Positions 42,663 to 53,732 of a stretch of 64,000 nt of DNA are shown one piece after another; positions within the stretch are counted from its first letter, which is position 1, and each line of letters starts with the position of its first letter. The translations under genes were made by a program, and so were the position numbers. The notes under the pieces are model-generated. The model had not been told where the DNA came from, did not search any database, and saw nothing but the letters and a program-made list of their open reading frames with translations. The DNA comes from Candidatus Poribacteria bacterium (GTDB lineage Bacteria; Poribacteria; WGA-4E; WGA-3G), in NCBI GenBank assembly GCA_022821965.1, contig JAJECN010000022.1:372001-436000 (forward strand), in the 5' to 3' direction.

Positions 42663-45600
42663 GTGAATAAAAATCCCAGCCAGAAAAATGAGATAAGGTA
42701 TTTTGCCAAAACGGAGGTTCGGACCCCTCTCCCGAATCTTATTGAGACCCAAAAGCTTGCTTATGATGCCTTCTTAAAACGAGATGTCCCACCCACCGAA
42801 CGTGCAGAAACGGGCCTCCAAGCCGTATTTAAAGAAGTGTTTCCGATTTATGACTTTTCGGATGTCAATAGTCTTGAATTCGTCAGTTACAGTCTTGGCG
42901 CACCGAAATATACGCTTCAAGAATGTGTTGCCCGCGGTGTAACGTACCAAGTATCCCTCACCGCACGTATCATGCTTGTTGTGCGTGAAGCAGACTCGGA
43001 TGCTGATGAACCGCACGTGGTGGATATCCGAGAATCTGATGTCTATCTCGGCGAAGTCCCTTTAATGACCGAAAATGGTAGTTTTATTGTCAACGGCAGT
43101 GAACGTGTGATAGTGAGCCAGCTGCATCGTTCACCGGGTGTTATTTTCCTTGAAAAATCGTTACCAACGGGACGGCGCACACCGACTGCCCAGATTATCC
43201 CCTATCGAGGTGCATGGGTTGAATTTGAAATAGACACGAAAGATCAGATTTATGTGCGTATTGACAAGCGTAGAAAACTGCCTGCCACCGTATTACTTCG
43301 CGCGCTTGGATGGGATTCAGACGCAGATATTCTAAAACTCTTTGCTAAAACAGAACGACTCGTGCTTGCGGGGTGGCGTGTTATCGATGTAGAAGGACCG
43401 GTGAAACAAGTCAAACCCGGTGATCTGTTGGATGCTGCGGACTTTCGGCAGGCAAGCAAAGACTATCCTGATCTTGAGGTAGAGAATTGTTATCGCGTTA
43501 CTGAAGTAACCGATGAGGAGTGCCCATTAGAGATTGGGCAGGAGGTTACATCTAAAGAACGTACAAGCCTCCGCAGAAAATGGAAAGGCTTTGAAACCGA
43601 GCTTCTCCGACGTGTCATTGATACACATGACAGTGCCTGTGAACTTGCGCCCGAACAATTACTAACGGATTCAGAATACCAAGAAGCGCGTTCTCGCTAC
43701 GGTAGGAAGGCATTTACAGCTGAACAGATATCTCAAGACGGTCAGGAGAGTGTTGGTCGAGTCTGTGCTGAAGACATCATCCACCCGGAAACTGGTGAAG
43801 TGCTCCTCACAGCAAATACGTTGCTCACTGAAACAGAATTGGAACGTCTCACGGAAACAGGTGTTGAAGCACTCACAGTCTTAGACGTAGAGGATTGCCA
43901 GCATATCCGGTTTCTACGCAATACATTAGAACGGGACCGACAGGCAGATTACGAAGAGCCATATACTTTGCAAGACGCTGCACTGCTTACAATCTTTCGC
44001 ACGCTGAGACCAGGAGATCCCGCTGGTATAGAGAACGCTCGTAAACATCTTGCGTGGCTGCTCTTTGATTCGCATCGGTACGATTTAGGTGTCGTTGGGC
44101 GATATAAACTTAATCGAAAATTTCAGGATATACCCATTTACGGTGAGCCACCGGAGGAGAGTTTTCGTACGCTTCGCCCGGAAGATATTGCGGCTACGGT
44201 GGATTACCTTCTTAAAGTTCACAATGGACTTGTCCAGAAAGATGATCTTGACCATCTCGGCAATCGCCGCGTGCGTGTTATCGGTGAACTGCTCGAAAAC
44301 CAATTCCGAATGGGGTTGTTCCAGATTCGCAGAACGACGCGCGAAAGGTTGAGTACGAACAACGATATAGCGAAAGTCGTTCCGTCCTCCCTGGTAAATC
44401 CAAAACCTCTGATGATGGCACTCCGCGAATTCTTCGGTTCAAACCAGTTGTCGCAATTCATGCAACAGATTAATCCGCTTGATGAATTGACGCACAAACG
44501 CCGTATTTCAGCGATCGGGCCGGGTGGACTCCACCGAGATAGGGCAACAGCCGCCGTTCGGGACGTACACCCTACGCACTATGGGCGTGTTTGTCCTTTG
44601 GAAACGCCCGAAGGTCCGTCAATCGGGCTCATTGTTTCCTTGGCTTGTTATGGGCGGATCAATCCCTACGGTTTTATAGAAACGCCTTATCACAAGGTTG
44701 AGGATGGTTCGAGAGTAGGTTCAGTAGAGTATCTCACAGCGGATAGCGAAGACACAGCTTACATTGCTGCAAAGGCGGCACCGCGTGCTGCTTCACAAAC
44801 TACAAATGGTGATGCAGATAATTCGGAGCAGACCCTACCCGTCCGTAGTGGAGAGGATATCCTGTCGCTTCCGATGGAAAAAGTGGATTACATCGGTGTC
44901 TCTCCACAGCAGATCGTTGGTATTTCCGCCGCGCTTGTTCCATTTCTGGAGCATGAGGATGCAAACCGCGCATTGATGGGTGCGAACCACCAACGTCAAG
45001 CTGTGCCGCTCATCAGTCCAGAAGCACCGCTCGTAGGAACAGGGATGGAAGCTCCTGCTGCATTGTATTCGGGTGCCCTTATTACTGCGGCCCGTGCTGG
45101 CACCGTCACAAGTGTCTCGGCTGACGAAATCCTTATCCATACAGGTGAAGCACTTCACGCTGATAAGGGTGAAAATACCTTCAGTGAGATGGGCTACGAT
45201 GTTTACAAACTCCAGACGTTCAAACGGAGTAATAGTGGTACCTGTATCCACCAACGTCCCATCGTTGCGGTGGGTGATAAAGTTGAAGCCGAACAGGTTA
45301 TTGCGGATGGCACATCCACAGAAGATGGCGAACTTGCTCTTGGGCGGAACATCCTCTGCGCTTACATGCCGTGGGGCGGTCATAACTATGAGGACTCTAT
45401 CCTGATAAGTGAATCACTCATCAAGGAAGATACGTTCACTTCTATCCACATTGAGGAATTTGAGGTGGAGGCGCGCGAAACGAAAGTGGGTCCAGAAGAA
45501 ATCACCCGTGATATTCCGAATGTTAGCGAGCAGCGACTCACACAACTTGATGAAGAGGGTATTATTCGCGTTGGTAGTGTTGTTGGCGCAGGCAGCATCT

Positions 45601-47918
45601 TAGTCGGAAAAATTACACCGAAAGGTGAGAGCGAATATGGACCAGAGGAAAAACTCTTACGCGCAATCTTTGGCGAAAAAGTCAAAGAGGTAAGGGATGC
45701 TTCGACTTACGTGCGTCCTGGCGTTGAGGGTGTCGTCATTGATGTAAAGGTATTTTCTCGTAAGCCAGATGGCGCGTCCCGCCGTGGAAATTGGTCGCAA
45801 GGCGACTCAAACGTGTCGATGGCTGATAACTTGCGATATGAGTCGAAACGCAAGGAAATTGAAGAGACCTGGCGCGAGCAGATCGCTTCTATCCGCCGCC
45901 GAAAAACTGAGGAAATTCACAACACACTTATAGGGTGTGAACTCGCTGATTCGCTCTACACAGTTAATGGTGTTAGCAATAGTGCCGATGCTAAACCCTT
46001 TGCTAATGCTGGTGATACTTTGACCGCTGAGGTTTTAGAAGCCTACATTTCGGGTTTCACGGCGGATGAATATCATATAGTGACTGAGGATACAGCCTCC
46101 GAGGCTTTTATCGCTGAAGCGTGCTATAGAGTGACGAACGTACCTGATCCAGTTCCTACTATTGTGGTCCATCCTCTCGATTCCTCAACTGAGGAACCGA
46201 TAACTTCGGATAGCGATGAAAGTGAGAATGATGAACCCGGAGCAGGGTCTGCGATTTCACTCGCGGAAACTATTAGTGCAGTACAGGTATATCTTAGCAA
46301 AGTGTGTGAACCACTTCTGGAGAATACCGAACCCCTTTCACAAGAAGAGGAGCCTTTAAACGAAGAGATCGCGGATGCTGATGTTGTGCTTCGCGGTTAT
46401 AACGGAAATGTCGTTGCTATTGTCCTATATGCAACTGATGATGAACATACTGAAGGTGGACCTCCTTCTGAACGTCTTTCGGAAATGCTTGCTGCAACGG
46501 ATGCACGATTCGGCATATTGATAACTGGTGCGGACTCAGAGCCTGATAACTGGGACTTTTATGGACTGGTAGGCGACACAGCGTTGCAACCGTGCGATCG
46601 CTCCGAGTTTGAAATCGGCGTTACGGCTCAGCTCGAAGCGGCTGGATGTCCTGTCGTGGAAACACAAAGACTAACCCAGCAGGAGTGGGAAAACCTTAGT
46701 GAAACCTACAAGGATTTACAAGTCGAGTTATTTTGGGACATTAAGGAAGTCTTTGATCCAGCGTGTCCATTGACTGAAGGACAAGAGATCACCGATGCCG
46801 ATCATCAACAGGTATCTAAAGATTTTCCAGAGCGTCCTATACAAGCGGGCCAGCGACTTACTCCAGATGAGTTAGAGTCGCTCACCAAAACCACTAAGAA
46901 CCTGAAGACCGATAACATTTGGCACATTACCGCTGTTTTTGATCCAAAGTGTACACTGTCTGTTGGCGACGATGTTTCTGACGCTGATTATCAGGAAGCA
47001 CTCAAATCATGTAGTTTGTCCGTTACGGACATCCATGTAACCAATGCCGATGCGAAAGAACACATCCAACGTGTTGAAGAGATGGCACAAGGCAGAATAA
47101 CCACTTATACTGAGGAGAAGGATCGGGCACTTCAGCAGTTAGATATGGGTGATGAGTTAAAACCGGGTGTTATCAAACGTGTCAAGGTTTATGTTGCCAG
47201 CAAACGACCGATTTCAGTGGGAGATAAGATGGCGGGTCGTTACGGGAACAAAGGCGTTGTTGCTAAAATTTTACCCGTTGAGGATATGCCCTACCTCCCG
47301 GATGGTACGCCAGTTGAGTTAGTGCTGAACCCCTTGGGTGTGCCCTCTCGAATGAACGTCGGTCAGATATTGGAAATCCATCTCGGATGGGCGTGCCATG
47401 AACTCGGCATCCGGGCAAAATCCCCTGTGTTTGACGGTGCGACAGAGGCAGAAATCTTCGAGCTGCTCGGCGAAACCGAGCTCCCTGAACGTAGTAAACA
47501 GACGGGTAAGAGCATTCTCTTTGATGGTAGGAGCGGTGAACCGTTTGCCCAAGAAGTAACGGTTGGATACGTTTATTTCCTCAAGTTGAATCACCTTGTT
47601 GCTGATAAGATGCATGCTCGCTCTACTGGACCTTACTCTCTCGTTACACAACAGCCATTAGGTGGTAAGGCACAGCATGGGGGTCAACGTCTCGGTGAAA
47701 TGGAAGTTTGGGCATTGGAGGCTTATGGCGCAGCACATACGCTCCAGGAAATGCTTACACTCAAATCAGATGATGTCCTCGGTAGAAGGGAAATCTATGA
47801 GTCAGTTGTGAAGGGGCTGAACCCTGATCCACCCGGTACACCAGAATCGTTCAAAGTTTTGGTCCGTGAACTCCAAACCCTCGGACTCCATGTATCTCTT
47901 GACAAGGATGAAGAATAG
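42663..47918 (+). CDS. rpoB: RNA polymerase beta subunit, with large repeat insertions
   Basis: 1751 aa from the GTG at 42663 (GGGAGA RBS nine bases upstream); a TTG at 42546 falls at the transcription start and is unlikely. All core blocks are present: PNLIETQKLAYDAFL, ENGSFIVNGSERVIVSQLHR, the rifampicin region (SNQLSQFMQQINPLDELTHK), GHNYEDSILISE, KITPKGESEYGPEEKLLRAI, SVGDKMAGRYGNKGVVAKI and MHARSTGPYSLVTQQPLGG. Two insertions make it ~450-500 aa longer than usual. One lies at residues ~238-355, in the place of lobe/SI1, and has three copies of a ~38-aa repeat. The other lies at ~1094-1460, at the SI2/beta-i9 coiled-coil position, with further repeats and a nuclease-like domain. The rpoC gene follows; rplKAJL does not precede it. 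Confidence 0.97.
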   Translation: MNKNPSQKNEIRYFAKTEVRTPLPNLIETQKLAYDAFLKRDVPPTERAETGLQAVFKEVFPIYDFSDVNSLEFVSYSLGAPKYTLQECVARGVTYQVSLTARIMLVVREADSDADEPHVVDIRESDVYLGEVPLMTENGSFIVNGSERVIVSQLHRSPGVIFLEKSLPTGRRTPTAQIIPYRGAWVEFEIDTKDQIYVRIDKRRKLPATVLLRALGWDSDADILKLFAKTERLVLAGWRVIDVEGPVKQVKPGDLLDAADFRQASKDYPDLEVENCYRVTEVTDEECPLEIGQEVTSKERTSLRRKWKGFETELLRRVIDTHDSACELAPEQLLTDSEYQEARSRYGRKAFTAEQISQDGQESVGRVCAEDIIHPETGEVLLTANTLLTETELERLTETGVEALTVLDVEDCQHIRFLRNTLERDRQADYEEPYTLQDAALLTIFRTLRPGDPAGIENARKHLAWLLFDSHRYDLGVVGRYKLNRKFQDIPIYGEPPEESFRTLRPEDIAATVDYLLKVHNGLVQKDDLDHLGNRRVRVIGELLENQFRMGLFQIRRTTRERLSTNNDIAKVVPSSLVNPKPLMMALREFFGSNQLSQFMQQINPLDELTHKRRISAIGPGGLHRDRATAAVRDVHPTHYGRVCPLETPEGPSIGLIVSLACYGRINPYGFIETPYHKVEDGSRVGSVEYLTADSEDTAYIAAKAAPRAASQTTNGDADNSEQTLPVRSGEDILSLPMEKVDYIGVSPQQIVGISAALVPFLEHEDANRALMGANHQRQAVPLISPEAPLVGTGMEAPAALYSGALITAARAGTVTSVSADEILIHTGEALHADKGENTFSEMGYDVYKLQTFKRSNSGTCIHQRPIVAVGDKVEAEQVIADGTSTEDGELALGRNILCAYMPWGGHNYEDSILISESLIKEDTFTSIHIEEFEVEARETKVGPEEITRDIPNVSEQRLTQLDEEGIIRVGSVVGAGSILVGKITPKGESEYGPEEKLLRAIFGEKVKEVRDASTYVRPGVEGVVIDVKVFSRKPDGASRRGNWSQGDSNVSMADNLRYESKRKEIEETWREQIASIRRRKTEEIHNTLIGCELADSLYTVNGVSNSADAKPFANAGDTLTAEVLEAYISGFTADEYHIVTEDTASEAFIAEACYRVTNVPDPVPTIVVHPLDSSTEEPITSDSDESENDEPGAGSAISLAETISAVQVYLSKVCEPLLENTEPLSQEEEPLNEEIADADVVLRGYNGNVVAIVLYATDDEHTEGGPPSERLSEMLAATDARFGILITGADSEPDNWDFYGLVGDTALQPCDRSEFEIGVTAQLEAAGCPVVETQRLTQQEWENLSETYKDLQVELFWDIKEVFDPACPLTEGQEITDADHQQVSKDFPERPIQAGQRLTPDELESLTKTTKNLKTDNIWHITAVFDPKCTLSVGDDVSDADYQEALKSCSLSVTDIHVTNADAKEHIQRVEEMAQGRITTYTEEKDRALQQLDMGDELKPGVIKRVKVYVASKRPISVGDKMAGRYGNKGVVAKILPVEDMPYLPDGTPVELVLNPLGVPSRMNVGQILEIHLGWACHELGIRAKSPVFDGATEAEIFELLGETELPERSKQTGKSILFDGRSGEPFAQEVTVGYVYFLKLNHLVADKMHARSTGPYSLVTQQPLGGKAQHGGQRLGEMEVWALEAYGAAHTLQEMLTLKSDDVLGRREIYESVVKGLNPDPPGTPESFKVLVRELQTLGLHVSLDKDEE
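43374..43727 (+). repeat. RpoB insertion 1: three protein repeats
   Basis: Three consecutive units at the protein level: 43374-43487 (WRVIDVEGP ... KPGDLLDAADFRQASKDYPD), 43488-43601 (CYRVTEVTDEECPLEIGQEV) and 43602-43727 (LLRRVIDTHDSACELAPEQL). The shared pattern is Y-x-V-T-x-V-x-x-x-x-C-P-L-x-x-G-x-x-L-T-x-x-E-Y followed by a helix and G-F. Confidence 0.75.
45942..47040 (+). repeat. RpoB insertion 2: repeats around a foreign domain
   Basis: This ~365-aa stretch splits the coiled coil before DELKPGVIKRVKVYVASKRP. A repeat-like unit starts at 45954 (LYTVNGVSNS ... AGDTLTAEVLEAY). Two good units lie at 46722-46832 (IKEVFDPACPLTEGQEITDA) and 46914-47024 (ITAVFDPKCTLSVGDDVSDA), with a half unit between them. 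The middle (46251-46580) resembles HsdR_N. Confidence 0.7.
46251..46580 (+). other. HsdR_N-like, probably inactive domain inside RpoB
   Basis: Residues ~1197-1306 of RpoB. The order helix (ISAVQVYLSKVCEPLL), ADVVLRGYNGNVVAIVLYA, helix, then ARFGILITGADSEPDNWDFY follows type I restriction HsdR_N domains (D-x-V-L-x-x-x-N-G-x-x-x-A-x-V-E-x-K ... G-I-L-x-T-G ... W-x-F-Y). The catalytic E-x-K is replaced by LYATDD, so nuclease activity is not expected. A by-eye assignment. Confidence 0.5.
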
Positions 47919-47922
47919 AATA

Positions 47923-48021
47923 TTGGCTTTCAGTTATCAGCCGTCGGCTTTCGGTTAAGAGGTGTCTGGTGAACGCAAAACCCTCTTTACTGATTGTTGA
48001 CGACTGACAACTGAAGGCTAA
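47923..48021. repeat. Heptamer hairpin, copy f (rpoB-rpoC)
   Basis: The left arm (47923-47963) runs TTTCAGTTATCAGCCGTCGG onward to GGTTAAGAGG. The right arm (47979-48021) runs CCTCTTTACTGATTGTTGAC onward to CTGACAACTGAAG. It fills the 120-base gap between rpoB and rpoC. Confidence 0.75.
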
Positions 48022-48038
48022 AAGAAAAAGGGGAACTG

Positions 48039-51000
48039 ATGAACACAGCATTTGACAGCATCTCCATAAAGATAGCCTCGCCTGATCAGATTAAAGATGA
48101 GGCGAAGCAGACCAGTTGTAGACGTCGAAATCCCGCCCAAGCAACAGATGGACCCTTTATCTGTCCTGAGAAAGGGACGTGTAGCTGCGGTGAGGTTAAG
48201 AAAGCAGAAACTATTAACTACCGTTCTTTTCGTCCTGAACCGGAGGGTCTCTTTTGTGAGGCCATCTTTGGCCCCCAAAAGGACTGGGAGTGTAACTGCG
48301 GCAAGTATAAACGGATTAAACATAAAGGGATGATATGTGACCGCTGTGGTGTCGAAATCACGCAACAGCGCGTTCGTAGAGACCGGCTCGGTTATATCCA
48401 ACTCGCCGCGCCTGTTTCCCATATATGGTACTTCAAGGGTATTCCGTCTCGTATTGGTACTTTCTGTGAGCTCTCTTCACGTGATGTGGAACGTGTTCTC
48501 TATTTTGAGGGCTTCATTGTTGTTGAGGTGACCGACCCTGATTGCCCACTTGAACCTGGACAGGTATTAACTGAGATTGAATATATTGAGCACAGCAACA
48601 AGTACTGGGGCGGGTTTCGCGCTGGAGCCGGTGCGGAAGTTATTCGCGAAATTCTGAGTGGTATCGATCTTGAAGAGGAGAAAGAGAAGTTAACCAAAGA
48701 GTTAGACGAAACAACGAGCCATCAAAAGAAACTTAAGATCGCTAAGCAGCTGAAACAGATGGCTGACTTTGCGGAAATCGGTCAGCGACCTGAGTGGATG
48801 ATTTTGGATGTTATTCCAGTCATTCCGCCAGATTTACGCCCCCTTGTCCCACTCGAAGGTGGACGTTTTGCTACCAGTGACCTTAACGACCTGTATCGCC
48901 GTGTTATCAATCGGAACAACCGACTGCGCAAACTTATACAGCTTCGTTCTCCAGAGGTGATTCTCCGAAATGAGAAGCGGATGCTGCAGGAAGCAGTAGA
49001 TGCCTTCTTTGATAATGGACGGCACGGTAGACGTGTCACCGGTCCCGGTAACCGCCCCCTCAAATCCCTTGCCGATGTTCTCAAAGGTAAGATTGGACGG
49101 TTCCGTCAAAATCTTCTCGGCAAACGGGTTGACTATTCCGGGCGTAGTGTCATCGTTGTTGGACCCGAATTGGGGTTGCATCAATGTGGAATCCCAAAAC
49201 GGATGGCAGTGGAGTTGTTTAAGCCATTCATTATTGAGCGGCTCCAAGCTTATGGGTATACGCAAACAATTAAGCGCGCGAAGCATATCGCTGAACACGT
49301 TGACTCGAATTCGCCTGTTTGGGAGGTGGTGGAGGAAGTAATTGCGGATCACCCGGTCTTACTCAATCGTCCGCCAACGTTGCACCGACTCGGCATTCAG
49401 GCATTTTTACCTGTTTTGGTAGAGGGCAAGTCAATCAGAATTCCGCCGCTTGTTTGTAAGGCGTTCAACGCCGACTTTGATGGCGATCAAATGGCAGTTC
49501 ATGTGCCACTCACCGTGGAAGCCCAAGCTGAGGCAAAACTCTTGATGCTCAGTAGTCATAACATCCTCAAACCTTCACACGGTGATCCTATCGCTGTTCC
49601 AGAGCTTGACATGGTGCTTGGACCCAGCTTCCTTACAAAGGCACTGCCGGAGCATGCTGAGGATGCGATGCTTTTGCACACCGCATACACAACGAACGAC
49701 ACTGCTGCTTTTGAGGCAATCTATGAAAAACCGTGGTATAACCGCCGCTACGCACATCCAGAAGAGGCAATCACTGCTCATGCAGCAGGTCAACTTAAGC
49801 TGCACGATAGCATCCAGTTCTTCTGTGCACCTAATGGAAATGGAAAAACTACGGAACCAATTCTTACGACAGTGGGTAGGGTTATTTTTAACGAAGTGCT
49901 GCCATCTGAATTAGAATGGGAAGACGAACATTCCGAACAGCAGATTCCGTTCTTCAATGCTGAAGCCGGGGGCAGGCAATTATCTGACCTGATCCATCGC
50001 TGTTTTAACGAATTGGGTACACGCGCCACAACTGAAGTACTTGAGAAGGTCCAAAAGCTCGCTTTTGAGTATGCAACGTTGAGCGGCATTTCGCCTGGCA
50101 TCATGGACTATATTACGCCCGACAACCGAGACAAACTGGTGAATGATGCCCAGGCGCAAATTGATTCCATCCTTGAGGGTGTAGCAACGACCGAACGCGA
50201 GGAGCATGAAAACGAGCAAGTTCGTATCTGGCTGGATGCGATTACGGAAGTTGAAAACGAGATGTTCAAAGTCTTGCCCGAATTAGAGACATCTCTCGTT
50301 GAGCGCGCTGATCCTCGAAAGATTCATCCAAAGATCGATGCCCATGGTGCAGAGATACGCGACAAAACAGTGGAGGGTTTCAGTCCGGTCCATATCATGG
50401 CGGACAGTGGTGCACGTGCTCGGAAAAATCCATTCACGCAAATCAGTGCCGTTATCGGGTTGAAGGCAAAACAGACCGGTGACATTCTTATCCCACCAAT
50501 TACCTCGTCTTATCGTGAAGGTTTGGATGTACTCGACTATTTCAACTCCACCTACGGGTCCCGTAAAGGTCTCGTGGACACGGCGATGAAGACCGCTGCG
50601 TCCGGATACCTTACTCGGAAACTTGTGGATGTCGCTCAAGATGTTCGCGTTACGATTGAAGATTGCGGTACGCTGAACAGCATTCAAAAGTTTGCAACGG
50701 AGGGTGGGGACCTTGCCTTTAAGATCAGTGGACGTACTGCCGCCGAGGACATCGTCAACCCAGAGAACGGTGACATACTTGTTCCAGCGGGTGCCATCAT
50801 ATCTACACAGAATGCTGAGAAGATTGATGAACTTGGCGTGAGAGTGGTGAAAGCCCGTTCCGTGCTCACCTGCCAAGCCGACGAAGGGGTTTGCGCAAAA
50901 TGTTATGGTAATGATCTAACGACGAATGACCTTGTTAACGTTGGCGAGGCAGTCGGCATCATCGCAGCACAATCCATTGGTGAACCCGGCACGCAGCTCA

Positions 51001-53732
51001 CCATGCGGACGTTCCATACTGGCGGTGCTGTTGAGGAAGTAGCGGAAGCGCGTCAGCGCAGAATTTTGTCCAAAGCCAACGGCACCGTGCATTTCCGAGA
51101 TTTCCAACCCGGACGGACGGTCGAAAAAGAGGGTGGGCTCTGGATAGCTACTGAAAACAGAGCAAACCTTGATGGACCCGCCTACAAGGTGCGACAGGTC
51201 AATCACCCTCACTGTCAATTGCGTGAAGGTGAATTGCTCAGTGAAAAGCAGTATATGGAAAACGCGGAACGCTACAAAGGCTTTGATACGAAGACATGGC
51301 TGTATGAAGTTACAGAGGTCTTAGATAATAACTGCGATTTGAAGGTAGGCGATCGGTTGTCGCAGGCAGAGTACGTCAAAGCACAGATGGACTACGGTTT
51401 TCAGAGGTTTGTAACCCCAAAATACCGCGTGACACGGGTGCAACATCCTAACCTTTCTCTGACCACAGGGACCGAGCTTACTGAAGAAGAGATAGAGCAA
51501 TTGAAAGCGGATACCCGTCAGGGGATTGAGGGAGAATGGCACTACTTGGATGCTGAAACAGGCGAGCGTATTGCTGTTGAGAACCTTACGGCAACTCAAG
51601 GTAATGCTTCTCCTGAACGCACTGATGACGAAGAAGGCGAAGCCTCCGGGCGCGATGCGAGTTTCAATCGTGTGTATTGCATAACCGAGATAGACAAGAA
51701 AACAAGCAAAGACTTCGGATTTAAGGTAGGAGACGAAGTTGAGCCAGAGAAAATCGCGCCATTGCTTAATCCGTTTGAAGTGGATACAAAGCCCGTTTAC
51801 GTTGTCAATACAGAGGTTGCTGAATTTACTGTCGGACAGACGTTAACTGCCCGTGAGTACGAGGATGCCCGCACGGAGTATCAGCATCTTGAACGCGCAT
51901 TTAAAGTTGAGAAGCAAGATGTTGAAAGACACTATGTGACTGATATATATCACTCCGAGTGTCCGTTCAAAATCGACGAAGAGTTAAGCGGTACAGCCTT
52001 AACGCGAGCACGTAAGCGGTTTACGGGTTTCGATGCCCAAAAGTTGCGGCACCGGATAACACAGGTGCACCATCCTGATTGCCCACTCAAACCGGGGGAT
52101 CTGATTAGTGAAAGTGAAGCAAAACAGTTGGGTGATAGCTACCCAGGGTTTATCACCTCTCAGAGTACGAATACTATGGGTAGTTTTGAAGTGGAGCGCT
52201 TATACCGTGTCACGGCTGTCAATCATCCTGACTGTTCACTGGAAGTTGGAGAACTTTTGACGCAAAAGGAATCCACCGCAAAACGCCGACAGTACAAAGG
52301 ATTGGAAGTTTCACGTCATTATGAAGTGGCACAGATCGAAGACGGTAGCACGGCGTTAAGTGTCGGTCAACGTCTCACTGAAATTGAGTATAAGGCACTC
52401 CGAAAAACGGATGCAGCACTCGCGGAAAAGGTCACGAGCCTGTACCATGTCGTTAGCGTACACCACCCTGAGTTAAAACTGGAGGTTGGTACCGAACTTA
52501 GTGACAAGGAGTATCGAACGTATCACCGACAATTCAAAGGGTTTGATGCTGAGCTTGTTTATCAAGTTGTTGACGACAAACGAGATATTGACACACAGCT
52601 GGAACCCGGGACTATTCTGTCTTCAAAGGAATACCGTGCCATTGACAAGGCAAACTTGCAGGTGACCCACACTGTCACCGATATTTATCACCCAAATTGC
52701 GAGTATGCGGTTGGCGACGAATTGTCAGAAGACCATGAAGTTGTGAAGGCGAAGTTCCCTGGATTTGAAATGGATGAACTCGCTTTACGGATGCGTATTG
52801 AAGTCGAAACTGTCGATGGAACTCGTGTTTCGCACGTTATTCCGGCAGACTACTCCTTCTCTTTGAAGGAAGGCGACAGTACCCGGAAAGGGGACACGCT
52901 GGCAGAACTCCATGAGAGAACAAAGAACGATGACATCGTTGCTGGTATCCCGCGTGTTACAGAATTATTTGAGGCACGCCGCCCAAAACGCGAGGTCGCG
53001 GCTCAAATCGCCGAAATCGAAGGTTATGTCCAATCTGCAGGCACAAAGTCAGGCATTCCGGCTTATCGGATTGAACATGAAGGATACCAGAGTCGCCTCT
53101 ATCAGATTCCTGATGAGAAGCGGCGCGTTGCTGAGGGCGATTGGGTGAATGCCGGTGAACCCCTTACCGACGGTTTCCTCAATCCGCACGATATCTTGCG
53201 TATCGGGCGCACGACCATTGAAGGCGTGTCCGTTGAAGGTGAGGAAGCAGTCTGGTCATATCTCGTTGATGAAGTCCAGAAGGTCTATCCTAACGGCACT
53301 ATCAACGATAAACACGTTGAGACAATCGTGCGGCAGATGCTGACGAAAATTCGTATCACCGACCCCGGCGACACGAACTTCTATCCGAACGATGAAGTGC
53401 AACGCAGGCAATTTGAACGTATCAATAGTGAAATCGTGGAAAACGGCGGCACACCTGCCACGGGTGAACCGATCCTTCAGAGCATTAGTAAAGCCTCTTT
53501 AAGCACGGATAGCTTCATCTCTGCCGCATCCTTCCAGCAAACGACGAAGGTACTCACAGATGCTGCTGTGAGTGGGCAGACCGATAGGCTCTTCGGACTG
53601 AAAGAAAACGTTATTCTCGGTAGACTTATTCCAGCAGGTAGCGGATTCTCAGGTTTCCAGAACTTAGAGGTCTCCCCGCTTGAGTCGGAGATTAGCGAAA
53701 CCGGTGCCAGCGAAACTGGTGATGATGATTAA
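48039..53732 (+). CDS. rpoC: RNA polymerase beta' subunit, with giant SI3-type repeat insertion
   Basis: 1897 aa; RBS AAAAGGGGA precedes the ATG. Core motifs: N-terminal zinc site [37 protein letters not shown], the catalytic [10 protein letters not shown] with Asp479, Asp481 and Asp483, the bridge helix and trigger loop ([16 protein letters not shown]), the second zinc cysteines ([13 protein letters not shown]) and the C-terminal [15 protein letters not shown]. Residues ~1049-1581 insert some 12 divergent copies of a 37-43 aa repeat into the trigger-loop SI3 position, inside a sandwich-barrel hybrid motif. The N terminus also has a Cys-rich insertion (residues ~22-50). The array accounts for nearly all the extra length. 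Confidence 0.97.
48519..48623 (+). other. Native RpoC clamp segment resembling the repeat
   Basis: Residues 161-195 ([20 protein letters not shown], then [15 protein letters not shown]) occupy the position of a segment found in all RpoC proteins (V-V-x-D-P-x-x-T-P-L-x-x-x-Q-x-L-x-E-x-E-Y). It matches the consensus of the inserted repeats closely and may be their source. Confidence 0.65.
51183..52780 (+). repeat. RpoC repeat array (about 12 protein units)
   Basis: Units start near 51183, 51294, 51423, 51675, 51791, 51931, 52045, 52198, 52315, 52441, 52554 and 52673. The best conserved are [60 protein letters not shown] and [20 protein letters not shown], each followed by a helix and GF or GFDA. 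DNA identity between units is low, so the array is old and under protein-level selection. Confidence 0.8.

Follow-up and report, generated by a model that had tools for sequence, protein, structure and literature searches.

Apparent copies of the β′ small left claw domain at insertion sites of both RpoB and RpoC in a sponge-associated family of Poribacteria

The window analyzed here, a 64,000-nucleotide stretch of the genome of a Candidatus Poribacteria bacterium (assembly GCA_022821965.1, contig JAJECN010000022.1, positions 372,001 to 436,000), carries rpoB and rpoC, the genes of the β and β′ subunits of RNA polymerase, both of which are long (Table 1). An original prediction, made from the letters alone, held that a degenerate unit of ~40 amino acids (aa) occurs about 12 times in RpoC (51183-52780) and five to six times in RpoB (43374-43727 and 45942-47040), at the lineage insertion sites SI1, SI2, and SI3. 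Alignment to the E. coli subunits, although approximate in gappy parts, placed the units at these three sites, and SI3 was also identified by structure. The count and range proposed for RpoC were right, as judged by a hidden Markov model (HMM), sequence pattern, and predicted secondary structure: units start at aa 1049, 1089, 1129, 1213, 1254, 1298, 1338, 1389, 1428, 1469, 1508, and 1544, and the array ends at ~aa 1579. Nine of the 12 units are strong in the HMM, those at 1254 and 1508 are partial matches, and the unit at 1213, with no HMM match, was placed by sequence pattern and predicted secondary structure. RpoB was found to have five units plus two half-units (aa 1329 and 1393; weak in the HMM, 5.3 bits and below). 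However, its second range is no plain array, since the middle (~46248-46631) is nuclease-like.

Table 1. Features of rpoB and rpoC, in window positions. aa, residues of the encoded subunit.
Feature	Position	Strand	Residues and details	Basis
rpoB host gene	42663..47918	+	1751 aa, GTG start	Pfam and NCBIfam RpoB domains
RpoB SI1 array	43374..43715	+	three units (aa 238, 277, 317), directly before BBM2/BEAN	HMM 11.2, 37.9, 23.4 bits
Native BBM2/BEAN element of SI1, unrelated to units	43755..43890	+	ends approximate	BBM2 HMM 42.4 bits at RpoB aa 354-412
Short strand-like repeats, start of SI2 insert	46056..46157	+	RpoB aa ~1132-1165	by eye; resemble repeats before nuclease in other genomes' cassettes
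Degenerate PD-(D/E)XK-like domain (putative), SI2 insert	46248..46631	+	RpoB aa ~1196-1323	Foldseek, VIA-align, G003 sequence match
RpoB SI2 units	46647..47018	+	half, full (aa ~1358), half, full (aa 1420)	HMM: full 15.0, 19.2 bits; half 5.3
rpoC host gene	48039..53732	+	1897 aa	Pfam and NCBIfam RpoC domains
Native sLC (β′-bD2) of clamp, predicted parent of repeat	48513..48623	+	RpoC aa 159-195	HMM built without native element; alignment to single element of other bacterial RpoC
SI3 SBHM, first part, interrupted by array	51045..51182	+	RpoC aa ~1003-1048	VIA-align to E. coli SI3 4iqz
RpoC array, trigger-loop insertion	51183..52775	+	~12 units, predicted sLC-derived	HMM; AlphaFold2 model
Partly disordered linker between units	51534..51668	+	RpoC aa ~1166-1210	pLDDT <50 at model residues 187-209
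SI3 SBHM, second part	52770..52931	+	RpoC aa ~1578-1631	AlphaFold2 model; VIA-align

The unit HMM was built from 315 units of the RpoC trigger-loop arrays of 33 genomes, with the native N-terminal element of RpoC excluded. This RpoC-array-only model scored the RpoB units of the window at up to 37.9 bits, far above the 3.7 bits of the best-scoring sequence among 300 shuffles, and a 116-aa query of three RpoC units, searched against the window's own genome, matched RpoB at E 7.9e-9. With the unit profile, the same genome yielded 15 matches at E ≤ 1.3e-4, all in rpoB (5) or rpoC (10, including the native element), and two matches outside these genes at E 3.5 and 4.3 only. Direct matching of the RpoC array to RpoB was also seen in most genomes of the window genus. 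These results bore out the claim that the same module is present in both subunits and confirmed, at the level of sequence, a single family whose similarity is significant across subunits. A Pfam scan of the window's SI2 insert and RpoC array returned chance-level matches only.

Searching other RpoB and RpoC with an HMM of the units, a check proposed with the original prediction, gave more than the match across subunits. When the RpoC-only HMM was applied to RpoC of other Poribacteria families, its sole site was the native clamp element (aa ~160-220). This is β′-bD2, a single strand-loop-helix element of ~40 aa in bacterial RpoC, called the small left claw (sLC), a name that covers β′-bD2 and β′-bD7, CATH 3.30.60.280 (Alvarez-Carreno et al. 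2024, PMC11515920; published work is cited throughout from excerpts). At this site, 15 of 21 outgroup RpoC (one of which is the second rpoC of a genus member) were matched at E < 1e-3 (best 2e-13), five were matched weakly, and one not at all; among outgroup RpoB, 0 of 19 were matched at E < 1e-3. Solved RpoC, e.g., 8i23, has one copy, with which the window's native element aligns. HHalign scored the unit against sLC at 98.4% (E 4.9e-15, 35 columns), versus 16.5% against bD7, 3.1% against RpoB BBM2, and 0.7% against β′ BEAN. A reverse model of 22 sLC sequences, including that of E. coli, placed seven array units of the window's RpoC and three units of its RpoB above the best of 300 shuffles. 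Since outgroup RpoC was matched only at sLC and HHalign favors sLC rather than BBM2 or BEAN, these results suggest that a resident β′ domain has been multiplied. By this homology to β′-bD2, the array and RpoB units are predicted to be copies of sLC that lie outside the clamp, at SI3, SI1, and SI2, the clamp position being true of the native copy only. The unit family, as a putatively multiplied native sLC, is thus not of unknown origin.

Tandem modules common to β and β′ are already known, namely BBM1/BBM2, BEAN, and HABAS (PMC2939025, PMC1586193, PMC11515920). The units could conceivably be BBM2/BEAN repeats, which share the SI1 site, are of similar length, and are known in 1-6 tandem copies (PMC2939025). 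However, this identity was rejected on the low HHalign scores of both profiles and on the BBM2 HMM, which found in the window's RpoB its own single element beside the units and none of the units themselves, and we consider it very improbable. Like the units, BBM1, BBM2, and BEAN are small modules found in both subunits and in tandem at SI1, but the sequence profiles of BBM2 and BEAN are unrelated to the units. By eye, the number of BBM2 copies at SI1 ranges from one to several among Poribacteria outgroup RpoB, a second case of module multiplication. RpoC of another family (G050, L103:11657-12454) appears, also by eye, to have roughly four BEAN-like repeats where bD7 lies.

The RpoC array was modeled from an alignment of 44 sequences, from which window-family arrays of unusual length (including those of group g18) and open reading frames (ORFs) cut by contig ends were excluded. 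Across these 44 sequences, from groups g1 and g19, the array layout is kept and many columns are invariant. In the AlphaFold2 model (pLDDT 81.6), a long strand, a short strand, and a helix make up each unit and repeat along the array. The two ends of the model (within residues 7..628) aligned with E. coli SI3 (4iqz) at a VIA-align Z of 11.7 over 80 residues and 2.3 Å, and by this model the array is nested within a single SBHM domain of the trigger-loop insertion SI3, which it splits in two. The original prediction would have failed had the units been unrelated between subunits or ordinary SBHM domains; instead, the units align, and they are unlikely to be SBHM domains themselves, since the SBHM match stems from the two ends flanking the array, i.e., from the interrupted host. 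A giant, repeat-built trigger-loop insertion is also found in cyanobacteria, whose Si3 consists of 8 SBHM over 645 residues and has been called the largest known insertion (PMC10802570). In contrast to that Si3, which is built of SBHM domains, sLC units lie here inside a single SBHM. The distance from the trigger loop to the LFEAR motif is 644 aa in the window, 851-854 aa in g18, and 932 aa in genome G004.

Among the matches listed for the unit profile in 386 genomes, 74 genomes had a match at E ≤ 0.001. Two or more copies were found in 55, all in the window's family of sponge-associated Poribacteria; one copy was found in 19 (10 order-mates and 9 outside the phylum) and none in 312. The family was covered in 55 of 58 genomes, and the other three (G034, G064, and G065) were also without an rpoC core match. 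The window's RpoC region recurs at 62-87% identity in nine named Poribacteria records, of which most, if not all, are metagenome assemblies. Median unit numbers in RpoC/RpoB were 1/0 in the outgroup, 10.5/0 in genus g19, 9.5/4.5 in g18, and 10/5 in g1, counted at E < 1e-3 with the native element included where it passed, and with ORFs <1290 aa and the second rpoC of G005 excluded; some ORFs are cut by contig ends, and minima include such ORFs (RpoB of G082, RpoC of G027 and G073). A FastTree tree of core RpoC joined g1 and g18 with support of 0.997 and the family with 0.993. Together, the unit counts and the tree give an order of gain: the RpoC array came first, units at RpoB SI1 followed before g1 and g18 diverged, the SI2 insert then arose in g1, and insertions in single species came last.

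Assembly error was rejected as a general cause, since the array is present in single-contig genomes, e.g., G005, G009, G021, G028, and G081. A second, dispensable polymerase was likewise ruled out, the window's own genome having a single rpoC core match. A second rpoC core match is present in three members of the window genus (G005, G012, and G025). In the single-contig genome G005, it falls in a 1073-aa ORF with which a 383-aa ORF in a different frame overlaps (L088:4811-9155), and this rpoC-like region may be a decaying copy.

The ratio of nonsynonymous to synonymous substitution (dN/dS), estimated for three pairs, was 0.11-0.14 for the array and 0.06-0.09 for the RpoC core, 0.07-0.15 for SI1, 0.12-0.24 for the nuclease-like part of SI2, and 0.13-0.27 for the SI2 units. 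Values this low for the insertions (0.07-0.27) indicate purifying selection and argue against junk. The insertions are acidic (pI 5.05, 4.81, and 4.05). Building on the common ancestry, parent element, sites, order of gain, and selection described above, we consider it probable that sLC was multiplied in SI3 and placed in RpoB at SI1 and then SI2, and that the arrays serve as acidic docking or shielding surfaces. Tandem duplication of sLC inside the loop of the SI3 SBHM would have produced some ten to fifteen copies. In-frame recombination into insertion-tolerant surface loops would then have carried copies into RpoB, first to SI1 and subsequently to SI2, with further loops reached in individual species. 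The resulting acidic projections at the trigger-loop insertion, the lobe, and the flap base could present docking or shielding surfaces to other factors. The functions put forward in the original prediction, binding of a shared partner or an extended polymerase periphery, are also possible. A shielding role is conceivable by analogy with Si3 of cyanobacteria, which shields the site used by secondary-channel factors (PMC10802570). GreA_GreB_N (PF03449) was found in 0 of 84 Poribacteria genomes versus 9 of 14 controls. Being phylum-wide, this absence does not track or explain the array, and the phylum may be without Gre factors, as is said of cyanobacteria.

Several points weigh against this interpretation. 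The array model had no Foldseek match at E ≤ 0.001, and VIA-align matched its SBHM ends, not the units to solved sLC. Six of the 21 outgroup RpoC miss E < 1e-3 even at sLC. The units are short and diverged (the least diverged pair in the window array has 56% DNA identity), so their ancestry does not appear traceable copy by copy here. Finally, the dN/dS values come from three pairs only, one with high dS, and folding alone could constrain conserved insertions.

The insert at RpoB SI2 has a further component. Its model, made from an alignment of 29 RpoB ORFs that fit a text pattern, reached a pLDDT of 82.9. For the middle domain, Foldseek ranked 3ijm at a probability of 0.99 but with E 0.05, and gave no match at E ≤ 0.001. 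VIA-align matched it to BpuSI (3s1s; Z 7.3, 111 aligned, 3.8 Å), the putative restriction endonuclease 9y1l (Z 6.9), 3ijm (6.4), BsaXI (4.6), EcoR124I (4.5), and Hjc (4.4). A Z below 8 is moderate, and flagellin rows rank equally high via long helices, which makes the likeness to nucleases moderate by structure alone. The sequence link is stronger: the window's SI2 insert is 31% identical to a cassette of genome G003 over nuclease and units (E 8.8e-35). We thus propose, with moderate confidence, that the domain has a PD-(D/E)XK core fold. Of the catalytic D...E-x-K, the E-x-K is replaced in the window and four aligned relatives, and the motif was not seen in the 29-row alignment. In contrast, E-x-K is kept in the first of the nuclease copies in both G003 and G009 (E-C-K / E-F-K). 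In PADLOC, neither the window's SI2 insert nor the G003 cassette matched any family. The SI2 insert probably represents a decayed descendant of a nuclease-bearing cassette, its fold kept as a surface domain.

An insertion scan of relatives revealed extra in-frame blocks in other RpoB or RpoC loops of five family genomes. These genomes are multi-contig drafts, and the reading frames are continuous, with no stops. The cassettes in RpoB carry two HsdR-like domains (G003) or an HNH domain (G074), and those in RpoC (G002, G075, and G026) match REase_MTES_1575 above the cut-off (E 1.1e-19 to 9.4e-24). Four of the five are arranged as short strand-like repeats, nuclease, and sLC units, the exception being G026, where the cassette lies inside the array; G018 has a block of units alone, without a nuclease. 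Another RpoC insertion (G078, L145:9953-11380) is >350 aa long, coiled-coil-like, and without sLC units. The HsdR-like domains scored below the cut-off of Pfam HSDR_N_2 (G003, 16.7 of 25 bits; G009, 20.4 of 25). No Pfam HNH model matched the domain of G074 or of G045, and when part of the G074 cassette was searched against PDB sequences, leukotriene A4 hydrolase was the only match (E 0.011). Support for the HNH reading comes from NCBIfam and PADLOC matches and a conserved C-C-H-H-C-H pattern.

Cassettes with different nucleases have unit blocks in common, as in G074 versus G075 (45% identity over 181 aa, E 5.8e-42), and the cassettes of G002 and G075 are 43% identical (E 4.2e-43). G074 and G075 are sister genomes, with different cassettes in different subunits. 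The G003 cassette is 49% identical (E 4.5e-129) to a standalone protein of G009, the only genome with a free-standing copy among the matches listed. This 851-aa protein (L087:1062-3617) contains, besides two HsdR-like domains and sLC units, TPR repeats and a hydrophobic stretch, and an ORF next to it has the same nuclease domain. The nearest relatives have a short loop at seven of the eight sites examined; the G045 site is without a short-loop relative. Cassette GC is 3.6-7.8 points below that of the host gene. Recent tandem copies were seen in G002 (105-bp unit, 1.9 copies, 92% match) and G003 (51 bp, 2.4 copies, 93%). Outside the family, ZorE-like HNH domains occur in RpoB of two of six genomes of g5, a group from another Poribacteria family (G041 and G045; L094:3288-4187 and L098:10955-12322); in G045, duplicated BBM2 elements surround the HNH, and a segment downstream has been copied.

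How the units spread, and what they do, can be read in other ways. The units could travel in mobile nuclease cassettes, in-frame and unspliced, of the form short repeats, nuclease, and sLC units, which would enter loops of the polymerase genes, persist through their open frame, lose the nuclease after fixation, and leave the units behind. The extra cassettes of five genomes, the unit block shared by different nucleases, the match of G003 to the standalone G009 protein, the short loops of relatives, and the low cassette GC are all consistent with such movement, as is the loss of E-x-K from the fixed SI2 domain while the first G003/G009 copy keeps it. However, the cassettes show no target-site duplication (the longest shared word is 8 bp), no mobile-element gene was identified, and the G075 cassette patterns had no match in any stretch of viral_contigs. 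Moreover, the sites differ and do not recur, save for one RpoB loop common to G018 and G074, and the oldest element, the RpoC array, is without a nuclease in most genomes. We regard mobility of the units in this form as a tentative alternative. It is speculative, and rather doubtful, that these are a new kind of mobile unspliced element, in which sLC-framed nuclease cassettes move among RpoB/RpoC loops (once to a free-standing gene), swap nucleases, and decay, leaving arrays that the enzyme uses as surface. Inteins and homing endonucleases resemble the cassettes as in-frame, nuclease-bearing insertions in polymerase genes, but here sLC-derived units would stand in place of the splicing domain. 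An intein identity was rejected, since the Pfam matches of ten insertions (E ≤ 0.5) included no Hint/intein family.

A role in polymerase-tethered defense, with the inserted nucleases as anti-phage effectors and the arrays blocking or misdirecting phage proteins that bind polymerase, seems unlikely to us. The HNH domains of G074, G045, and G041 do match ZorE models (PADLOC E 1e-18 to 5e-20; G074 1.1e-18), the MTES_1575 domains match C-terminal parts of Hhe, PDC-S37, and ProA, and E. coli phage proteins act on the same surface, T4 Alc with β and T7 Gp0.7 phosphorylating β′ SI3 (PMC2939025). Nevertheless, the matches cover the nuclease domain only, one domain of much longer proteins, and the ZorE, Hhe, and ProA full-length cut-offs are far from reached (43.7 of 600, 51.2 of 2000, and 60 of 1500 bits). 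The window's SI2 and G003 cassettes have no PADLOC match, and paf mutations lie outside SI1 (PMC2939025). We would give similarly little credence to a neutral expansion by slippage and recombination in tolerant loops, kept only since the subunits still fold: tandem duplication appears ongoing in the G002 and G003 cassettes and the insertions lie in loops, but the layout conserved over the 44 g1 and g19 arrays and their dN/dS of 0.11-0.14 speak against it.

The reading preferred here, multiplication of sLC and its placement in both subunits, has partial precedents. Rare β′ variants have sLC inserted in bD2, bD4, bD5, or bD7 (PMC11515920). The excerpts of that survey describe β with BEAN, not sLC; in these Poribacteria, by contrast, there are at least 10 putative copies in the trigger-loop SBHM of β′ and further copies in β at SI1 and SI2. 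In the open-licence literature, we found no report of sLC in β, of sLC trigger-loop arrays, or of nuclease domains inside RpoB/RpoC. The suggestion that a shared array had no known description thus held in part: tandem modules of β and β′ are known in general, whereas sLC units in β were not found in that literature.

The 2024 survey assigns domain insertion into the large polymerase subunits to one distinct ancient period, after which it fell off steeply (PMC11515920). In the polymerases described here insertion looks recent, a resident β′ domain having spread between subunits within one family and single species bearing new insertions with nuclease domains. RpoB and RpoC are among the most conserved bacterial proteins, yet this enzyme appears still to acquire new domains. 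It thereby becomes testable how a domain moves in frame between essential genes and what purpose the large surface insertions of polymerases serve. Should the nucleases prove active, the enzyme would act either as a vehicle for selfish cassettes or as a base for defense.

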